Assembly: GCA_022600345.1 (NCBI GenBank)
Contig: JAHZKP010000060.1
Coordinates: 1 to 43,315, forward strand
Source: Alphaproteobacteria bacterium
Lineage (GTDB): Bacteria; Pseudomonadota; Alphaproteobacteria; Rhizobiales; Hyphomicrobiaceae
DNA length: 43,315 nt
Direction of reading: 5' to 3'
Shown: positions 2,177-18,890 of the stretch, one piece after another
Layout: each line of letters starts with the position of its first letter
Numbering within the stretch: position 1 is the stretch's first letter
Position numbers and translations under genes: made by a program
Notes under the pieces: generated by a model
Database searches by the model: none
The model's input: the letters and a program-made list of their open reading frames with translations, nothing else
What the model was told of the DNA's origin: nothing

Positions 2177-3724
2177 CTACGACCGGCGCTGCCCGGCATG
2201 CGGGGTCTTCTCCCAGAAAAAGGGGGCAACCGCGAGCTGCCACAAGGCACGGTAGGCGGCAAACGAAATCATTAGCCAATAGACCGGCATGACAATCACG
2301 CCGGGCGCGAGATTTAGGCGATTACGGCTGGAAACAGCTACTGCGCCCAGCGCCATGGCAGAAACATAACCGGCGACCAGGTTGAACAGCCCCAGAGGCA
2401 TCAACCAACCCGAGCCAAACAGCGCCGCCGCATCGGGCACGCCGCCGTGGCTGATCACAAGAACAAGCAGTGCAATGTAAAACCACGGGTGGACCAGCGC
2501 GGAAAAGATCATTCCGCCCATCAAAACCTGGATGCCAAGAAATCTATAGCCCCCCAGATCACGCCACAGCCCAAGCGGATTGCGCATCAAAACCAGGTAG
2601 GTCTGCATCCACCCCTTCAGCCAGCGCGTCCTTTGACCTTTCCAAACCGCAAACGATTCGGGAGCTTCCTCCCAGGTCGTCGACTGAAGCGTTTTAACGC
2701 TATAGCCCAGGCGAGCAAGCCGGATCCCCAGATCGGCATCCTCAGTGACGTTGTAGGCATCCCACCCCCCAACTCGATCCAGTACCTCGCGCGGGAAGTG
2801 GTTCGATGTGCCCCCCAGCGGGATCGGCAGTCCCAGACGTTCCAATGCCGGCAATATCGCATCGAATAGCGCATTGTATTCTATCGTGAATTGGCGGGTA
2901 AAGAAGTTGCGGTCGCTGTTGTAGAGGTCGAGCCGCGCCTGGACACAACCGATCTGCGGCGGCCCCGCCTTGAAAACTTCGATGGCGCGTTTCAGTTGAT
3001 CGGGCTCGGGAAGATCTTCCGCATCATAGACAACCACATATTCGCCGACGGCATCGGCGAGGGCGAAATTGAGCGCGCGCGGTTTGGTGCGCGGCGCACC
3101 CGGCGGTACGACGACAACGCGCATATTCTCGGCCAACCCGCTGCTTGCTATGGCGTTTCGCGTTTCCACGTCGTCATATTCGACGATCAGCGAGATTTGC
3201 AGACGGCGTTTAGGATAGTCGAGCCGACCCAGGGCCTCCAATAACTGACAGACAACGGCAGCCTCGTTATAAAGCGGTACCAGGATCGCATAACGCGGCA
3301 GACCTTCGATGGGATCGGCCGCAGGTTGCTGCTGACCGCTGCCAGCCACCCCGGTGAATGCGCCCCTGCGCCCCAGTTCGACCAAGGCTGCACATCTCAA
3401 CAGCGCGATACAAACGAACGGCAGACCAATTGCAGCAAACAGCAGCGGAACGACAATCGGCGGGCTGAGCGCCAAAGCCGCACACAATACAACAATCGCA
3501 ATTGCGCCGGCGCCGATCACACGATGTGGCCGCAACGATTTAGCCGATAACTCGGGAAATCGCTCCTCAAGGCCGACAGCAAAGCGGCCCAACGAACCGT
3601 GCGGATCGTCCCTGCTCGCAGGGAGCGGTTTTGTCGTCAGGTAGTCCTCATCGGGCCATTCAGCAGTCGAGCGAATACCTGCGCCCTCGTTGTCCACGCC
3701 ATAGTTCTCACCGCGATCACTCAT
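2177..3724 (-). CDS. Membrane glycosyltransferase, family 2, processive type
   Basis: 515 residues. A cytoplasmic N-terminus is followed by two membrane segments near residues 68-110, then a GT-A catalytic domain (YAILVPLYNE at 145-154), the acidic DAED at 234-237, TEDAD at 327-331 and QRTRW at 364-368. Several membrane segments follow at the C-terminus. The D, DxD, TED and Q-x-x-R-W series is characteristic of processive beta-glycosyltransferases such as cellulose and hyaluronan synthases, so the enzyme probably polymerises a sugar from a nucleotide-sugar donor and exports it. No cellulose-synthase PilZ domain or accessory genes are nearby, so the product cannot be named. The ATG at 3724 lacks a clear ribosome site, so the start is less certain than the body. 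Confidence 0.88.
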   Translation of the reverse strand: MSDRGENYGVDNEGAGIRSTAEWPDEDYLTTKPLPASRDDPHGSLGRFAVGLEERFPELSAKSLRPHRVIGAGAIAIVVLCAALALSPPIVVPLLFAAIGLPFVCIALLRCAALVELGRRGAFTGVAGSGQQQPAADPIEGLPRYAILVPLYNEAAVVCQLLEALGRLDYPKRRLQISLIVEYDDVETRNAIASSGLAENMRVVVVPPGAPRTKPRALNFALADAVGEYVVVYDAEDLPEPDQLKRAIEVFKAGPPQIGCVQARLDLYNSDRNFFTRQFTIEYNALFDAILPALERLGLPIPLGGTSNHFPREVLDRVGGWDAYNVTEDADLGIRLARLGYSVKTLQSTTWEEAPESFAVWKGQRTRWLKGWMQTYLVLMRNPLGLWRDLGGYRFLGIQVLMGGMIFSALVHPWFYIALLVLVISHGGVPDAAALFGSGWLMPLGLFNLVAGYVSAMALGAVAVSSRNRLNLAPGVIVMPVYWLMISFAAYRALWQLAVAPFFWEKTPHAGQRRS

Positions 3725-4347
3725 TGTGGATAAAAATCGTTCCCTAGCAGGCTGATACGGCCTTGATACGAGCCGGGCAAATTCCCGGGCAGGAACCTGG
3801 CAGGCTGCTTGTTATTGATGCCGCCTCCCCCCGGTTTTGAAGAAAACGCGGAGCGCACAGTAAACGTCAGTACAATGCCCGGTTGGACGGCTATTTAAAT
3901 GCAACCTTAGTTGCCATCTGCAAAATCGCTGACGAGACCTTGGAATGGCCCTCGGTGGGGCTTAGAGCGGTTCAGGGTTAGTTGGAACCATTCTGCCGAG
4001 GCGAATTTGGTTCGAGATCAAGTGGACCGGTGAAATGCGTAGCGGGGCTACGGATGAGACGGGACGCGCAGATATCGGGGCAAATTCGCCCGGCCCTTCG
4101 GGTTTCCAAGCGGCGGCGAGGTCATGCTGGAAGCGTGCTTCGCCACGACTCGTCGGCCAGCTTGCCCGTAACACCGCTACGAACTGCACTGCCCTCCTGC
4201 TCGCTCGTGCTGGAAGCGCGGCTCCGCCACGACTCGCCGCTTGAGAAACAGAATTGCTTCCACCTAACCCTGAACCGCTCTAGAACAATCAAACGATTCA
4301 ATCGACCCGGCTGGTTTGGTGGACAGACATTGAAAGGGAGGATGAGA
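3725..4347. other. Divergent intergenic region containing a MITE-like element
   Basis: This 623-base gap between the glycosyltransferase and the solute-binding protein gene holds a perfect DnaA-box 9-mer (TGTGGATAA, 3725-3733) next to the glycosyltransferase start. It also contains the 320 bp repeat element annotated separately. No independent gene was recognised; open frames through the element are artefacts of its GC-rich sequence. Confidence 0.6.
3963..4282. mobile_element. MITE-like element with ~33-bp imperfect inverted ends and internal repeats
   Basis: The ends at 3963-3995 and 4249-4282 are inverted copies sharing TAGAGCGGTTCAGGGTTAG and much of the following 14 bases. Inside, a ~28-base segment beginning TGCTGGAAGCG occurs twice (4125-4152 and 4208-4236). 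There is no transposase. The AGAGCGGTTCAGGGTTA end resembles repeats I recall scattered through Hyphomicrobiales genomes. The element sits directly upstream of the solute-binding protein gene and adds a false open extension to it. Confidence 0.75.
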
Positions 4348-5232
4348 ATGCCGATCACGAATCTGCAAGGTTGCTTTGATGCCTCCCGCCGATGGATGAC
4401 CCGACCGGCGATAACATGGCTCGCGGCAGCCCTCATCGCCCTTGCCGCCGGGCTTCACACTTCACTCAGCCACGCGCAATCCAGCGGCTCGGCGGAAGCC
4501 GGGGCCAATAATGCGATCGTGGCGCCTCAGCGGGTTGTCCTGCGGTTTCTTACAACCAGTGACTATCCACCCTTCAACTTTTATGACGAAGACGGCGTGT
4601 TGACCGGCTTCAACGTCGATTTGGCCCGTGCAATCTGCCTGGAGCTGGAGGTCACCTGCGAAATCCTGGAACGCAGTTGGAACCAGTTGCTGCCCTCGTT
4701 GGCGAAATCCCAGGCAGACGCCGTGATCGCAGCCCACTCGGTAACCGCCGAGACCCTGAAACGGTTTGCTTTTTCCGATCGCTATTTCCACACACCGGGA
4801 CGTTTTGCGGGCTTGCGGCGGGACCCGACGGTTATCGCCACGCCCGAGGGCCTGGAAAGCAAACGCATCGCCGTGGCTTCAGGCAGCGCACACGAGGCAT
4901 TTTTGCGGCAATACTTTCGCGGCAGCCGGATTCTGGTGTTTGACAACCCCGAAATCGCCCGCGAGGCGCTGAAAGCCGGGGAGGTCGATGTGGTGTTTGG
5001 CGATGCGATCAGCCTGTCGTTCTGGGTCAATGGCACAGCCTCCGAACAGTGCTGCGATTTCAAGGGCGGTGCGTACCTGGAGCCGAAGTTTTTTGGTGAC
5101 GGCATCGCCATTGCGATTAGCAAGGAGGACCTGCAATTAAAGGCTGAAATCGACAATGCGCTGTTGGAGGTGCGCGCCAAGGGCCGATTTGCCGAACTGG
5201 TGACGCGCTACTTCCCTTACCGGCTGTATTGA
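4348..5232 (+). CDS. Periplasmic solute-binding protein, amino-acid ABC type (SBP_bac_3)
   Basis: 294 residues. A basic N-terminus and hydrophobic stretch (WLAAALIALAAGLHTSL) ending at SHAQS indicate a Sec signal peptide. The mature part has the family-3 pattern: LRFLTTSDYPPFNFYDEDGV, then GFNVDLARAIC, then a lobe starting KRIAVASGS, and VDVVFGDA. Such proteins bind small polar solutes, often amino acids, and deliver them to an ABC permease. No permease or ATPase gene is adjacent, so the ligand is unknown and it may act as an orphan receptor. The ATG at 4348 was chosen because AGGGAGG lies about 6 bases upstream; an ATG at 4342 is too close to it. The open frame extends leftward into the MITE-like element, which is not coding. 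Confidence 0.88.
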   Translation: MPITNLQGCFDASRRWMTRPAITWLAAALIALAAGLHTSLSHAQSSGSAEAGANNAIVAPQRVVLRFLTTSDYPPFNFYDEDGVLTGFNVDLARAICLELEVTCEILERSWNQLLPSLAKSQADAVIAAHSVTAETLKRFAFSDRYFHTPGRFAGLRRDPTVIATPEGLESKRIAVASGSAHEAFLRQYFRGSRILVFDNPEIAREALKAGEVDVVFGDAISLSFWVNGTASEQCCDFKGGAYLEPKFFGDGIAIAISKEDLQLKAEIDNALLEVRAKGRFAELVTRYFPYRLY

Positions 5233-5372
5233 TTTCGCCACCCCTCGAAAACCAGGCCGATCCACTGCAATCAGTTGGATGGTGCGCTCAAGCCCCAGTC
5301 TGGCCCCGTGACTCAAGCCGGCTAAGATTCTACAGTTGCCGTGCCGACGGGCCATGGATTGCTCAAAAAAGG

Positions 5373-5390
5373 GTGTCATACTCCTGCAAA
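5373..5390 (+). promoter_or_regulatory. Candidate Pho box upstream of plcP
   Basis: GTGTCATACTCCTGCAAA has the layout of a PhoB site: two 7-base half sites separated by 4 bases (consensus CTGTCAT-N4-CTGTCAT). The first half matches 6 of 7 and the second 4 of 7. It lies about 70 bases before the plcP start, a plausible promoter position, and the downstream genes belong to families induced by phosphate limitation. Confidence 0.5.
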
Positions 5391-5462
5391 ATGAATCGGG
5401 AACGATCTGTCTGAAATACCAAGGATGGGCCTGCGATCCACTTTCAGGGGAGCCATAAAGCC

Positions 5463-6254
5463 ATGAAGAAGTATCGGTCGCTGTTTATTTCAGACGTACA
5501 CCTGGGCACCCGCGGCTCCCAGGCTGAGATGTTGCTTGACTTCCTTCGCGAACACGATGCCCAGACCATCTACCTTGTCGGCGATATCGTCGATTTCTGG
5601 CGCATCCGCCGAGGCGCCATCTGGCCTCAGTCCCACAATGACGTGCTGCAAAAAATACTGAGAAAGGTGCGCAAAGGTTCGCGCGTCATCTTCATCCCCG
5701 GCAACCACGACGACGGACTTCGCCAGTATTGCGGCCAGAAATTCGGCGGCATCGAGATCAAGCTTCAGGACATCCACGAAACCGCCAACGGCAAACGCTA
5801 TATCGTCATGCACGGTGACGAGTTTGATTTGGTCGTGCGCTACGCCAAGTGGCTCGCCTTCCTTGGCGACCGCAGCTATCAGATGGCAATGTGGACCAAC
5901 CTCCCCATCAACTTCGTGCGCCGCCGGCTGGGGCTTGGTTATTGGTCATTGTCGAGCTATCTCAAGTTGCGCGTAAAATCCGCCGTCAACTTCATTGGCG
6001 AATTCGAACAAAAGCTTTCCAAGGCCGCCAAGGAGCGCAAAGCCGACGGTGTGATTTGCGGTCACATCCACCATGCCGCCTCGCGGCAGATCGAAGACAT
6101 CCACTATCTGAACTCAGGTGATTGGGTTGAAAGCTGCACGGCCATCGGGGAGACCGACGAAGGCAACTTCGAATTGATCCGCTGGCTGGATATCGTCGCT
6201 GAACGCAAGGCCAAGGCTGATGCCGCCCGCAACCCTAACCTAGAGGCAGCCTAG
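5463..6254 (+). CDS. plcP: PlcP-type metallophosphoesterase (phospholipase C) for lipid remodelling
   Basis: 263 residues with the calcineurin-like metal-site motifs in order: SDVHLG, GDIVDFW, GNHDD, MHGDEFD and GHIHH. Such sequences are often labelled UDP-2,3-diacylglucosamine diphosphatase (LpxH-like). The gene immediately following is an Agt-like glycosyltransferase and a diacylglycerol kinase homologue comes next, which is the setting of rhizobial and marine PlcP. PlcP hydrolyses phosphatidylcholine and phosphatidylethanolamine to diacylglycerol during phosphate starvation. The ATG at 5463 has AGGGGAG about 10 bases upstream, and its stop codon directly abuts the next ATG, indicating a two-gene operon. 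The LpxH-like activity remains the alternative. Confidence 0.8.
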   Translation: MKKYRSLFISDVHLGTRGSQAEMLLDFLREHDAQTIYLVGDIVDFWRIRRGAIWPQSHNDVLQKILRKVRKGSRVIFIPGNHDDGLRQYCGQKFGGIEIKLQDIHETANGKRYIVMHGDEFDLVVRYAKWLAFLGDRSYQMAMWTNLPINFVRRRLGLGYWSLSSYLKLRVKSAVNFIGEFEQKLSKAAKERKADGVICGHIHHAASRQIEDIHYLNSGDWVESCTAIGETDEGNFELIRWLDIVAERKAKADAARNPNLEAA

Positions 6255-7319
6255 ATGAGGGTACTCGTCGCCACAGACGCCTGGCGACCTCAGGTCAACG
6301 GTGTCGTGCGGACCTATGAACGTCTGCGCCAGGAAGCCGCGCCACTTGACGCCGAGATCGTGTTTCTGACACCCAACGAATTTACCACGCTGCCCTGCCC
6401 GACCTACCCAGAGATTCGACTGTCGCTACCAGGCTACAACTACATCGGTCAGCGGATGCGATCTGTTCAGCCGGACGCTGTGCATATCGCAACCGAAGGG
6501 CCGCTTGGCTGGATGACCCGGTCGCATTGCCTGCGCAAGCGGATCCCCTTCACGACCAGCTTTCACACCCGCTTTCCCGACTATCTTTCTCAACGCTTCG
6601 GTATCCCTGAGAGCTGGGTATGGAGTATGTTGCGAGGTTTTCACAATGCCGGCGCGGGTACCATGGTGGCAACCCCCAGCCTGTCGCGGGAGCTTGAAGC
6701 CAAGGGGTTTGAACACATCCTGCCGTGGACTCGCGGTGTCGACACCCTAATGTATCGCCCACAAGCCGTCCGCCGGTTCGGCGAGGGCCCAGTCTTCCTC
6801 TATGTTGGCCGGGTTGCAGTCGAAAAGAATATCGAAGCGTTTCTAAACGCCGACCTTCCAGGCAGCAAAGTCGTCGTCGGTGACGGCCCTCAGCTCGAAG
6901 AGCTAAAAGTTCGCTTTCCCGATGTGACGTTTACCGGCCGCAAGTTGGGCGAAGAGCTGGCCCAATGTTACGCCTCAGCCGACGTCTTCGTTATGCCCAG
7001 CCGTACCGAAACCTTCGGCATTGTCATTCTGGAAGCATTGGCATCGGGTTTGCCGGTAGCAGCCTACCCGGTCACGGGCCCTGTCGATCTCATCGAACAT
7101 GGACAAACCGGAATTCTAGGGGATGATTTAAGCCAAGCCGCCCGGCAGGCGCTTCTCCTTGACCCCGGCAATATCCGAACTAAAGCTCTCGAATACAGTT
7201 GGGAATCTGCTGCAAGGCTATTTGTATCGAATCTGGAAAACGCACTCTTCGCGCAACAAGGACGCAAGGTCCCCAAGCGCCGCGTTCGCCTTACCCGACA
7301 GCGGCCGTCCCAGGCCTGA
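6255..7319 (+). CDS. agt: Agt-like glycosyltransferase (family 4), diacylglycerol glycosylation
   Basis: 354 residues with a GT-B fold. The N-terminal domain begins RVLVATDAWRPQVNGVVRT, the acceptor half of family 4. The C-terminal donor half contains FLYVGRVAVEKN and the E-x7-E type motif in ETFGIVILEALASGLPV. Agt enzymes of Agrobacterium and marine bacteria transfer glucose or glucuronate from the UDP-sugar to diacylglycerol, making phosphorus-free glycolipids that replace phospholipids when phosphate is scarce. The gene starts on the base after the plcP stop, so the two are probably translated together: PlcP would supply the diacylglycerol that this enzyme glycosylates. Donor sugar cannot be told from sequence. 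A mannosyltransferase of the same family is an alternative. Confidence 0.82.
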   Translation: MRVLVATDAWRPQVNGVVRTYERLRQEAAPLDAEIVFLTPNEFTTLPCPTYPEIRLSLPGYNYIGQRMRSVQPDAVHIATEGPLGWMTRSHCLRKRIPFTTSFHTRFPDYLSQRFGIPESWVWSMLRGFHNAGAGTMVATPSLSRELEAKGFEHILPWTRGVDTLMYRPQAVRRFGEGPVFLYVGRVAVEKNIEAFLNADLPGSKVVVGDGPQLEELKVRFPDVTFTGRKLGEELAQCYASADVFVMPSRTETFGIVILEALASGLPVAAYPVTGPVDLIEHGQTGILGDDLSQAARQALLLDPGNIRTKALEYSWESAARLFVSNLENALFAQQGRKVPKRRVRLTRQRPSQA

Positions 7320-16700: not shown

Positions 16701-17357
16701 GGCGGGTCTGCCAAAGGTGAACTCTGACCTGACCCGCACGGCGGTGTGCCCACAACCGGCAACCCAAAACCGGTATGAACTTAGTTCACGCCCCCCCCTC
16801 TCCTCACACAAGCCGTTCGTGATCAATGTTCACGCGTGCGGCAGGCAGCCAGCGTCAGGCAGCGGACGGCGGGCGGCACGCAGCGAACGGTGGCCGGCAC
16901 GCTGCGAACGGTGGCCGACACGCTGCGGACGGCAGGCAGCACGATGCGAACGGCGCGGGCGAACGGCGAGCGGCATACGGCGAACGGTGGGCAGCGGGCG
17001 ACGGGCGACGGGCGACGGGCGACGGGCGACGGGCGACGGGCGCCGCGCGGATCATTAACGGCTTTTCGATTCCCTCAACATACCTTGCCTGACGCCGCCG
17101 ATTGCCCTTCTCAAGCCACCGTGTCGCGTCGCAGACGCCCTTAAAGAAAAATGCCCCCCGGCCAACCGCAATCTTTGGCTTGCCCACCAGTCATTTGACC
17201 TTCGTGACGCGCTACCACCGCTTGAGAAAGGTGTGCCAGGCTTTCGCCAAAAGTTATAAGAATTTTTTATATTCCGCACCAAGTCGGTAATTCTTGTGAT
17301 ATAGACATTGTATACTTCAACACATCCGCACACAGATTTACAGCAGGCGCACTAACA
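16701..17357. other. Repeat-bearing intergenic region upstream of the LuxR-type gene
   Basis: 657 bases. The centre carries 21-bp and 7-bp tandem repeats, annotated separately. The section 17194-17240 resembles the end of the repeat element at 35.6-35.8 kb. From 17250 the sequence becomes AT-rich, with an inverted pair AAGAATT (17258-17264) and AATTCTT (17289-17295) upstream of the LuxR-type start; this is probably the promoter zone. Open frames through the repeats are not supported as genes. Confidence 0.55.
16862..17042. repeat. Heptad-based tandem repeats (21-bp then 7-bp units)
   Basis: Five units beginning GCG(A/G)ACGG occur at 16862, 16883, 16904, 16925 and 16946, a period of exactly 21 bases. 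After a degenerate stretch, six perfect copies of CGGGCGA run from 16995 to 17036 with a partial one to 17042. Since 21 is three times 7, both may derive from one heptamer by slippage. Confidence 0.9.
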
Positions 17358-18083
17358 TTGCTGGACCAAAATATTCTGCAAGTCTTCGAACGGATCGCCA
17401 ATTGCAATACGGTTGAAGATCTTCACGAAATCGTTGTCGAGGCCGTCCTTGCCTTCGGATACGACTATGTAACGTTTCTGACGCTGCCCTCCCCCGGCCA
17501 AACGGTTAAGGACAGCATTTTGTTCGACACCAGGCCGAAAAAATTCATTGAGAGCCATCGCCGCAAGGACTACCTGACCCGGGAAACTGCGATCAAGGAA
17601 CTCAAACGCTCTCTGGCAACGGTAACTCTTGGCGATCTGAGAGATATGCCGACGATGACGTTGGCCCACAGAAAGCTGTTCGAAGAGGCAAGCGAACTGG
17701 GAATTGTCGATGGCCTCATTGTTCCTGTTGTAACCGCTGGTGGAAACCTGGGTGTATTTTCCCCTAGTGGCCGGGCGCCGGATCTTGGGCCGATAGCGCG
17801 AACCACCGCTGAGTTGATTGGCACTTGTGCGCATCAAAGAGTGTTGCGCCTGTCCTTGATCTCGATACAATCCGACCCGAACTTTGAGCCACTGTCACGA
17901 CGTGAGCGCGAAGTGCTGCAACTGGTTGCTTCTGGCAAGACCGACAAGAATATCGCCCAGGCCCTGAAGATCGAGGCGGCAACGGTAAGAAATCAGATCG
18001 AACAGGCTAAGCTGAAATTGGGCGTCACCAAGAGGACGCAAGCCCTGATCATGGCATTAAAGCGCGGCGAGATCGGCCTCTGA
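17358..18083 (+). CDS. LuxR-type regulator with atypical autoinducer-binding domain
   Basis: 241 residues. Residues 1-165 have the layout of the LuxR autoinducer-binding domain, and 177-241 form a GerE helix-turn-helix (LSRREREVLQLVASGKTDKN, then ATVRNQIEQAKLKLGV). The DNA-binding half keeps the usual residues. In the sensor half the normally invariant AHL-pocket residues are not in place: by eye Trp57 corresponds to F63, Tyr61 to H67, Pro71 to Y72, and the Trp85 position reads Leu. The start is a TTG at 17358, chosen because it gives a complete domain. A LuxI-like gene follows 117 bases downstream, so the two likely form a signal-receptor pair. The ligand may not be a standard acyl-homoserine lactone. 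Confidence 0.85.
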   Translation: MLDQNILQVFERIANCNTVEDLHEIVVEAVLAFGYDYVTFLTLPSPGQTVKDSILFDTRPKKFIESHRRKDYLTRETAIKELKRSLATVTLGDLRDMPTMTLAHRKLFEEASELGIVDGLIVPVVTAGGNLGVFSPSGRAPDLGPIARTTAELIGTCAHQRVLRLSLISIQSDPNFEPLSRREREVLQLVASGKTDKNIAQALKIEAATVRNQIEQAKLKLGVTKRTQALIMALKRGEIGL

Positions 18084-18167
18084 AAAAATCCCGACCAGCC
18101 CTGTCAATAGAAGTTTTCTCCCATTTGGTTTTGCTCCGAATTTGCGTATCATTACATCGCAAACGAA

Positions 18168-18177
18168 AATGATCATT
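18168..18177. promoter_or_regulatory. Palindrome between the LuxR-type and LuxI-like genes
   Basis: AATGATCATT is a perfect 10-base palindrome inside a longer imperfect one (ACGA...TCGT flanks), about 25 bases before the LuxI-like start. Position and symmetry would suit a lux-box-like operator for the upstream regulator. It does not match the classic lux box sequence, so this is only a candidate. Confidence 0.3.
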
Positions 18178-18200
18178 CGTGGCGATCGGATTGGGGCAAA

Positions 18201-18890
18201 ATGGCTGTTGCAGTTAGTGTTGGCGTCTCGGCCGCCCAACAAAAGCTCCTTGATGCACTTTTCCGACCTCGGCCCAGCGAAGTGGCGTCCGGGCAGGTGC
18301 AATCGATTGTCTGCTCCCATGGCATCGCGGAAAATTTCGATGCGGTCGACGGTGCCGTGTGTTTCTACGACTTGACCTCCCACGGCGGGGTCGAGGGGTA
18401 TGCCTGCCTCCTCCCAACCATGACCCGGTCGCTGATCGCTGAACTCTACCCCCAGTCGTCCAGTCTATCAGCGCAACCGTGTGCCCCCGACATCTACGAA
18501 GCCACCTGCTATTACATGCGTCCTTCCAATATGTCTGCGGAAGCACATCGGCAAGGTCGCTCACGGCTCTTGCGGGCAATGATCGAGTGGGCCTGGGACT
18601 TCGGACTGAGCGACATCCAATGCGCCACAAATCTGCAAGCGATGCCGATGCTCCGAGACATGACGCCAAATCTCCAGTCCATCGGCCCCGAACTCCCCCC
18701 ACTCCCTGTCGGATCGACCTTGGCAGATGAGAACAACCATTGCGTTCCAGCACGCTGGCCCATTTCCGACGATATGCGGATGGAAATCCTCGATTATGCA
18801 GCCAACCAGGAGCAGCCCTACCGCGTCCTGGAACTATGTACGCCAGTCCGCAAATCCGGCCGACGCAGAAAGCGGCGTCGGCGCCGCTAA
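18201..18890 (+). CDS. LuxI-like (autoinducer synthase family) protein lacking conserved arginines
   Basis: 229 residues. The order of blocks follows autoinducer synthases: ENFDAVDG near 44-51, GGVEGYACLLPTM at 62-74, SLIAELYP, then IYEATCYY at 98-105, LLRAMIEWAWDFGLSDIQCATNLQAMPMLRD (segment 123-153) and IGPELPPLPVGSTLADENN. In standard LuxI enzymes the blocks read G-x-x-R-LLP and E-x-S-R-F. Here both arginines are cysteines (C69 and C103), while the acidic residues (E44, D47, E100) remain. The N-terminal R-x-x-x-F and Trp features are not seen. The C-terminus is a run of basic residues (RKSGRRRKRRRRR). It may make a different signal or have lost activity; an unrelated GNAT role is the alternative. 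Confidence 0.72.
   Translation: MAVAVSVGVSAAQQKLLDALFRPRPSEVASGQVQSIVCSHGIAENFDAVDGAVCFYDLTSHGGVEGYACLLPTMTRSLIAELYPQSSSLSAQPCAPDIYEATCYYMRPSNMSAEAHRQGRSRLLRAMIEWAWDFGLSDIQCATNLQAMPMLRDMTPNLQSIGPELPPLPVGSTLADENNHCVPARWPISDDMRMEILDYAANQEQPYRVLELCTPVRKSGRRRKRRRRR

Follow-up and report, generated by a model that had tools for sequence, protein, structure and literature searches.

A luxI-like gene next to luxR is easily taken, in annotation, for a functional quorum-sensing system. The 43,315-nucleotide stretch of DNA analyzed here (the window) carries such a pair, in which both proteins depart from their families at residues linked to acyl-homoserine lactone (AHL) chemistry. This immediately raises two questions. 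First, is the pair still able to make and sense an AHL? Second, if it is not, has it taken up another signal, been kept for another role, or simply begun to decay?

Both reading frames are open and lie where the first-pass annotation had placed them. The luxR-type gene P0001 (17358–18083, plus strand, TTG start) encodes 241 residues with an autoinducer-binding fold and a GerE helix-turn-helix (HTH), and the luxI-like gene P0002 (18201–18890, plus strand), a putative pseudo-synthase, encodes 229. The two genes are co-oriented and separated by an intergenic region of 117 bp (18084–18200, plus strand). Together with a 148-aa gene on the minus strand, they occupy the segment 16701–19644, flanked by bactofilin and HAD genes. 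G+C-rich tandem repeats lie at positions 16862–17049, on the way from the bactofilin genes to luxR, with a 21-bp unit in 4.5 copies and a 7-bp unit, CGGGCGA, in 6.9 copies.

The family search suggested with the first reading came out differently for the two partners. P0001 passes the cut-offs of both PF03472 (E 3.6e-15, 56.2 bits against 23) and PF00196 (E 2.5e-15, 56.3 bits against 23.5), whereas P0002 stays below the gathering cut-off of PF00765 (E 0.27, 11.2 bits against 24), a family for which four canonical sister proteins score 39–78 bits. P0002 is a clear LuxI homologue, with 89–100 bits in HMMs built from canonical sequences only, a BLASTP match to the LuxI of locus L077 (31% identity over 187 aa, 95.9 bits) and a match to 6wns at E 2.8e-4. 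Its identity to any compared relative is at most about 31%.

In P0002 both core arginines of LuxI synthases are replaced, R70 by C69 and R104 by C103. The first-pass annotation had drawn attention to these two near-invariant positions, and the counts bear it out: of the 122 distinct LuxI homologues in which both arginine columns are filled, 120 read Arg/Arg, a single one reads Ser/Arg and P0002 alone reads Cys/Cys. These proteins, among them 60 LuxI matches added from those listed for the genomes of the order, were aligned to the canonical-only model and counted on its core columns, each locus once. Two core rows without letters at the arginine columns, both pieces of broken genes (L031 and L030/L090), stand outside the 122. 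After clustering at 90% core identity, 104 clusters remain, of which 101 are Arg/Arg, one is Cys/Cys, one is Ser/Arg and one has no letters there; four further class-level homologues, outside the 122, have Arg at both places. The alignment to the canonical-only model places cysteines, not arginines, at both sites. The one other member of the 122 missing a core arginine, L190 (G263:C125:23170-23770), carries Ser in place of both R70 and F28 and Glu in place of D48, with Arg at R104. In LasI, Ser103-Arg104 forms the β-bulge, according to the available text of PMC1282579.

The available parts of PMC1282579 and PMC3704786 place Arg24, Phe28 and Trp34 in the N-terminal S-adenosylmethionine (SAM) pocket of LuxI. 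All three had at first been read as missing from P0002; this is right for Phe28, which is Val28, and for Trp34, which is Gln34 (Trp in 121 of 127 rows, with 2 of 127 gapped), but Arg24 is kept and aligns with the Arg found in all 125 rows that have a letter there. The acidic residues of LuxI synthases are E43, D45 and D48 together with E101. The last of these is retained as E100, as the first reading had it; E44 and D47, which that reading also counted as kept, belong to the D45/D48 region, which aligns in three ways, giving Asn45/Ala48 by MAFFT and BLASTP, Glu/Asp in the HMM alignment, and Asp47/Asp50 by phmmer against MesI. Tyr83 at the place of F84 is common in the family, and the basic C-terminal tail RKSGRRRKRRRRR (18849–18887 of the window) has no counterpart in the aligned relatives. 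Overall, P0002 keeps 19 of 53 conserved columns, and left-out sisters keep between 44/59 and 53/53.

Structure prediction, which had been proposed as a check on both partners, returned a LuxI-type fold for P0002 and a LuxR fold for P0001. Since the AlphaFold2 models were built with canonical relatives as alignment rows, they are biased towards the canonical fold. For P0002 the mean pLDDT is a mediocre 71 and the pTM 0.73, with a predicted LuxI-type, GNAT-like fold; most of residues 51–170 exceed 70, and residues 22–42, the SAM lobe in LuxI, fall below 50. The best Foldseek match of this model is BjaI (5w8a, E 1.1e-9), ranks 1–12 are taken by BjaI, RpaI, MesI, TofI, LasI and EsaI, and the N-acyl amino acid synthase FeeM follows at rank 18. 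With only one of the three SAM-side residues and neither arginine left, and with a pLDDT below 50 for residues 22–42, canonical AHL synthesis by P0002 is very unlikely.

Is the receptor altered as well? The pocket positions W57, Y61, D70, P71 and W85 (TraR numbering) read F63, H67, E76, T77 and L91 in P0001. The AHL bonds of W57 and D70 in LuxR receptors are described in the accessible text of PMC8546723. In 40 other LuxRs, drawn from the same loci and including the second LuxR of the same genome and one broken-gene piece, Asp70 and Trp85 are found in all 40, Pro71 in 38 (Met in the other two), and position 61 is Tyr in 38 and Phe in two. A second set of 18 sisters, partly from the same loci, has one exception, the second copy of L084, with Arg for Pro71. 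The replacements of Tyr61 by His67 and of Trp85 by Leu that the first-pass annotation had listed thus hold good. Its reading of Pro71 as Tyr72 was a misalignment, as Pro71 corresponds to Thr77 and Tyr72 is the usual family residue. At position 57 the residue is indeed Phe, but the subfamily mostly has Tyr there and L077 has Phe, so that Phe63 alone means little. The most telling change, Asp70 to Glu76, which maintains an acidic group at that place, had been absent from the list.

P0001 keeps 39 of the 63 columns that are conserved in at least 85% of the 18 sister LuxRs, whereas left-out sisters keep between 55/66 and 63/63. Retention differs only weakly between the HTH (21/28) and the ligand domain (18/35; p 0.07, or 18/30 and p 0.27 without the pocket). 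The 24 columns of the 63 that P0001 has lost include every one of the five pocket columns (hypergeometric P 0.006, with the pocket set chosen from prior TraR knowledge). The P0001 model has a mean pLDDT of 85, and its Foldseek matches are entries of TraR, RhlR, SdiA and QscR. The best is 2q0o, the TraR–TraM anti-activation complex, and the second is 8dq0, RhlR bound to PqsE.

With both partners in hand, the first question can be answered. The clear homology and the retained R24 and E100 would fit a pair that still makes and senses an AHL in the usual way and has simply diverged; however, F28, W34, R70 and R104 are gone together, none of the 121 other homologues with letters there misses both arginines, and the receptor pocket is lost too, so we hold this reading to be very improbable. 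Still less probable, in our estimate, is that the unusual residues reflect sequencing or assembly error. The source assembly is a draft genome of 156 contigs and one base suffices for each Arg-to-Cys change, but no compared relative exceeds about 31% identity to P0002, whose frame is open, and the differences extend to 34 of 53 conserved columns in P0002 and 24 of 63 in P0001.

On sequence grounds, the window pair derives from an alphaproteobacterial luxR-luxI-phyH unit. The subfamily of luxR-luxI units is represented in the Hyphomicrobiaceae, elsewhere in the Hyphomicrobiales and in some other alphaproteobacterial records, and phyH lies beyond luxI in all 19 distinct sister loci that have luxI and downstream sequence. 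The count started from 31 loci plus the window, with five loci entered under two names; L079 and L083 break off before the sequence beyond luxI, L087 and L093 have luxR without luxI, L012, L019 and L020 are stretches of the same genome as the window and have no luxI, and L090, with a broken luxI, is among the 19. L076 differs in having luxR and luxI in divergent orientation. For sphingomonads, the available part of PMC3704786 reports the order of the unit as well, as novR-novI-phyH. The window resembles these units (novR-novI-phyH, L076–L092 and others) in having luxR beside luxI and homologous proteins, at 27–38% identity to the sisters for LuxR and 17–30% for LuxI. It differs in that Y61, D70, P71 and W85 are gone from the receptor as well as F28, W34, R70 and R104 from the synthase, and in that no phyH is found within its 43 kb. 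The single PF05721 match of the genome lies on contig C39, where tblastn with sister phyH genes gave no match. Two of the sister loci are unusual in their own right. L084, from a Pseudolabrys sp. MAG, holds two tandem luxR-luxI pairs (2326–5490), and its first-copy LuxI (3146–3787) departs from the family around W34–D48 with both arginines kept. L033 (G158:C237) is a luxR-luxI-phyH locus on long branches (LuxR 1.56, LuxI 1.27), with pocket and catalytic residues kept.

The sister loci also differ from the window upstream of luxI. An inverted repeat close to TCCTAG-N4-CTAGGAT, starting 71–83 bp before the luxI start codon, occurs in 11 of 20 sister regions (at least 11 of 14 matches) and may be the LuxR operator of these genes. 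The consensus was read by eye from the same upstream regions and then scored against 30 shuffles each, palindrome scoring being too noisy; 10 of the 11 regions beat their largest shuffle and L025 ties, and several of the 11 are close relatives. The window intergenic region reaches 9/14 against a shuffle mean of 8.9, so the dyad is not seen there, and the core pattern has no match in the genome. A 10-bp palindrome, AATGATCATT, does lie in the intergenic region at 18168–18177; a palindrome of this kind also turned up in 7 of 100 shuffles of the window. Because nine of the 20 sister luxI regions likewise have no clear dyad, its absence says little and is weak evidence for loss of the circuit; the loss of phyH is firmer. 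Taken together, the losses in synthase, receptor and phyH lead us to conclude that the AHL circuit has been dismantled.

The distribution of the pair bears on what followed. None of eight genus siblings has a lux pair. In G002, G006 and G007 the bactofilin pair and the HAD gene are about 85–100 bp apart, in G003–G005 the HAD gene adjoins the 148-aa gene, and G001 and G008 have the same genes in other arrangements; no lux match better than E 0.02 occurs in the sibling stretches retrieved around the bactofilin and HAD genes. Either the pair was inserted in this lineage specifically, therefore, or it has survived here alone. One sibling (L134 in G004, 4846–7257, minus strand) has, close to its bactofilin genes, an ORF of 803 aa in which PF13458, a periplasmic-binding-protein domain, is recognized (E 1.5e-19) and whose C-terminal part looks, by eye only, like a ligand-gated channel.

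A search for the pair in other genomes, including other Hyphomicrobiales, had been proposed as a further check, and it found a pair with these features in one genome only, with no second species or strain among the genomes searched (99 of relatives, 397 of the order, 103 of the family and 385 of the class). Two scans of an 84,980-species collection were added. The scan with P0002 alone gave 84 pattern matches, none of them confirmed; that with the LuxR alignment gave 38 loci, of which 20 (L076–L095) were examined and 18 (L096–L113) match only a C-terminal part, about the HTH. A plasmid tblastn returned partial matches in 22 Bradyrhizobium records, with a coverage of 55–62% as listed.

Within its own genome, P0002 is the only LuxI found by profile and protein searches; the search with PF00765 itself is uninformative, having given no match in this genome and likewise none in any control genome. 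A second LuxR, with a canonical AHL pocket, is encoded at C45:141-800 (L020:108-821, minus strand), with 140 bases between it and the contig end and an HTH match that covers no more than the first 45 of 57 positions. No partner synthase for it was found in the assembly, and as the gene sits near the contig end, a partner could lie beyond.

The second question, then, is whether the pair is still under constraint. In maximum-likelihood trees both genes sit on long branches (2.14 for P0002, 1.21 for P0001), and their root-to-tip distances are about 3.0 times (LuxI) and 2.4 times (LuxR) the average of 11 sister loci, in agreement with the matched divergence of both partners seen in the first reading. 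Branch length by itself does not indicate that function has been lost, since L033, outside this set of 11, has a LuxR branch of 1.56, longer than that of P0001, and a normal pocket. When canonical sister genes were evolved neutrally to the observed divergence, no stop appeared in 1.3% of 450 runs for LuxI and 2.8% of 360 for LuxR; these runs start from today's canonical genes under one neutral model and count stops, not frameshifts, and a history of constraint first and late relaxation would also pass. Of the drifted controls that were forced open, 5 of 300 for LuxI and 1 of 216 for LuxR scored as high against the family as the window proteins do. L079, a LuxI fragment at a contig end, was left out of the retention and drift counts. 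Codon-position GC is gene-like in both genes, the GC2 of P0002 (0.49) being slightly above that of the other listed genes (0.40–0.47). Because open frames are so rare in the simulations, the family scores exceed those of drifted controls and the codon GC is gene-like, most of the divergence of the pair was not free drift, which is compatible with a recent relaxation. The claim that this is not the simple decay of one gene is likewise upheld, as both frames are open and both proteins are more family-like than the neutrally drifted controls.

It is conceivable, with a low but appreciable probability, that the pair gave up all its functions not long ago and now drifts, its frames still open by chance. 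Such a late decay would account for the long branches in both genes and for the occurrence in a single genome. Cys69 and Cys103 are both encoded by TGC, which a single C-to-T change would produce from CGC, the presumed ancestral Arg codon; relaxed selection gives changes of this kind. Pairs of the subfamily decay elsewhere too: in Methyloceanibacter methanicus R-67174 (L090, about 3896–6524, the same place as L030/G332), luxR and luxI are each broken into two frames with phyH following, a case of joint decay, and in G130 (L031) luxI is split. Outside the subfamily, traI2 of Mesorhizobium ICESyms is found at various stages of pseudogenization, and is, like P0002, a luxI copy in a LuxR-type system that AHL production can do without, as the available portion of PMC8627217 describes. 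According to the same portion, traI2 is a duplicate beside traI1 and is visibly pseudogenizing; P0002, by contrast, has an intact frame, no other LuxI was found in its genome, and its receptor is altered too. Against late decay stand the improbability of open frames after so much neutral change (1.3% and 2.8%), a family likeness above that of the drifted controls, and the coding-like codon-position GC of both genes.

The opposite possibility is that the pair has become a new signaling system, in which P0002 would transfer an acyl group to a non-SAM substrate and P0001 would sense the product. The matched divergence of both partners, the predicted LuxI/GNAT fold with E100 kept, the match of the P0002 model to FeeM and the acidic group that E76 maintains at the place of D70 could all be read in this way. 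So could the LuxR solos of fluorescent pseudomonads: in the text of PMC8546723 that is available, solos with W85L or loss of D70 are proposed to bind non-AHL ligands or none, and, like P0001, they keep the LuxR fold after losing W85 (subgroup D) or D70 (H and I). These solos have no LuxI partner, as far as that text goes, whereas the window encodes a LuxI-derived protein next door. On the other hand, no new motif is recognizable, phyH is lost, the substrate lobe 22–42 has a pLDDT below 50, and C69 and C103 occur in no relative, giving no sign of selection for these cysteines. The first-pass annotation had favored co-evolution of the two partners around a different signal; the sequences show AHL features and phyH lost, with no gain of new chemistry, and we consider this reading unlikely, somewhat more so than late decay.

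The explanation that we favor over both, though at no better than even chances, is a decommissioned AHL quorum-sensing pair that is retained in a changed, AHL-independent role. In this scenario, a luxR-luxI-phyH unit would have entered, or uniquely survived in, this Hyphomicrobiaceae lineage. The AHL loop would then have been lost as the synthase gave up its SAM-side F28 and W34 and both core arginines, the receptor lost the residues that hold the lactone and the amide, and phyH disappeared, together perhaps with the luxI operator dyad of many sisters. P0001 may still bind DNA, since its HTH keeps 21 of 28 conserved columns, and would work without AHL, being ligand-free, occupied by another ligand or held by a protein partner. 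P0002 would be a pseudo-enzyme no longer making acyl-homoserine lactone; any function for which it is still kept would lie outside AHL chemistry, in binding acyl groups or a protein.

P0002 might conceivably act on the neighboring LuxR, by analogy with the action of PqsE on RhlR. In that system the activity of a LuxR-type receptor depends on a chaperone with an enzyme fold (PDB 8dq0), the enzyme working as chaperone of the receptor in the accessible part of PMC9715718, and it could serve as a model for the boldest reading of the window pair. This reading, which we offer tentatively, has two forms of equal standing. In one, the pseudo-LuxI would be a protein or acyl-carrying partner of LuxR within a switch confined to the cell; in the other, a LuxI would make an acyl product other than a homoserine lactone, and a re-tuned LuxR would sense it. 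To our knowledge, PqsE is not LuxI-derived, unlike P0002.

Altered LuxR pockets at these positions are already known from solos (available text of PMC8546723), as are failing luxI copies (available text of PMC8627217); in the open literature searched, no report of a luxR-luxI pair missing these residues in both partners was recognized. Here synthase and receptor have lost their AHL features together, and with an accessory gene, while both frames are still open. The pair is probably an old communication circuit that has been kept for another use or is on its way out. If it is decaying, it would be a caution for annotation. If selection maintains it, the LuxI family would include a pseudo-enzyme and the pair would offer a test case of the ways in which quorum-sensing circuits are retired or repurposed, and, should the partner reading be true, a circuit for a diffusible signal would have been turned into a private switch inside the cell.
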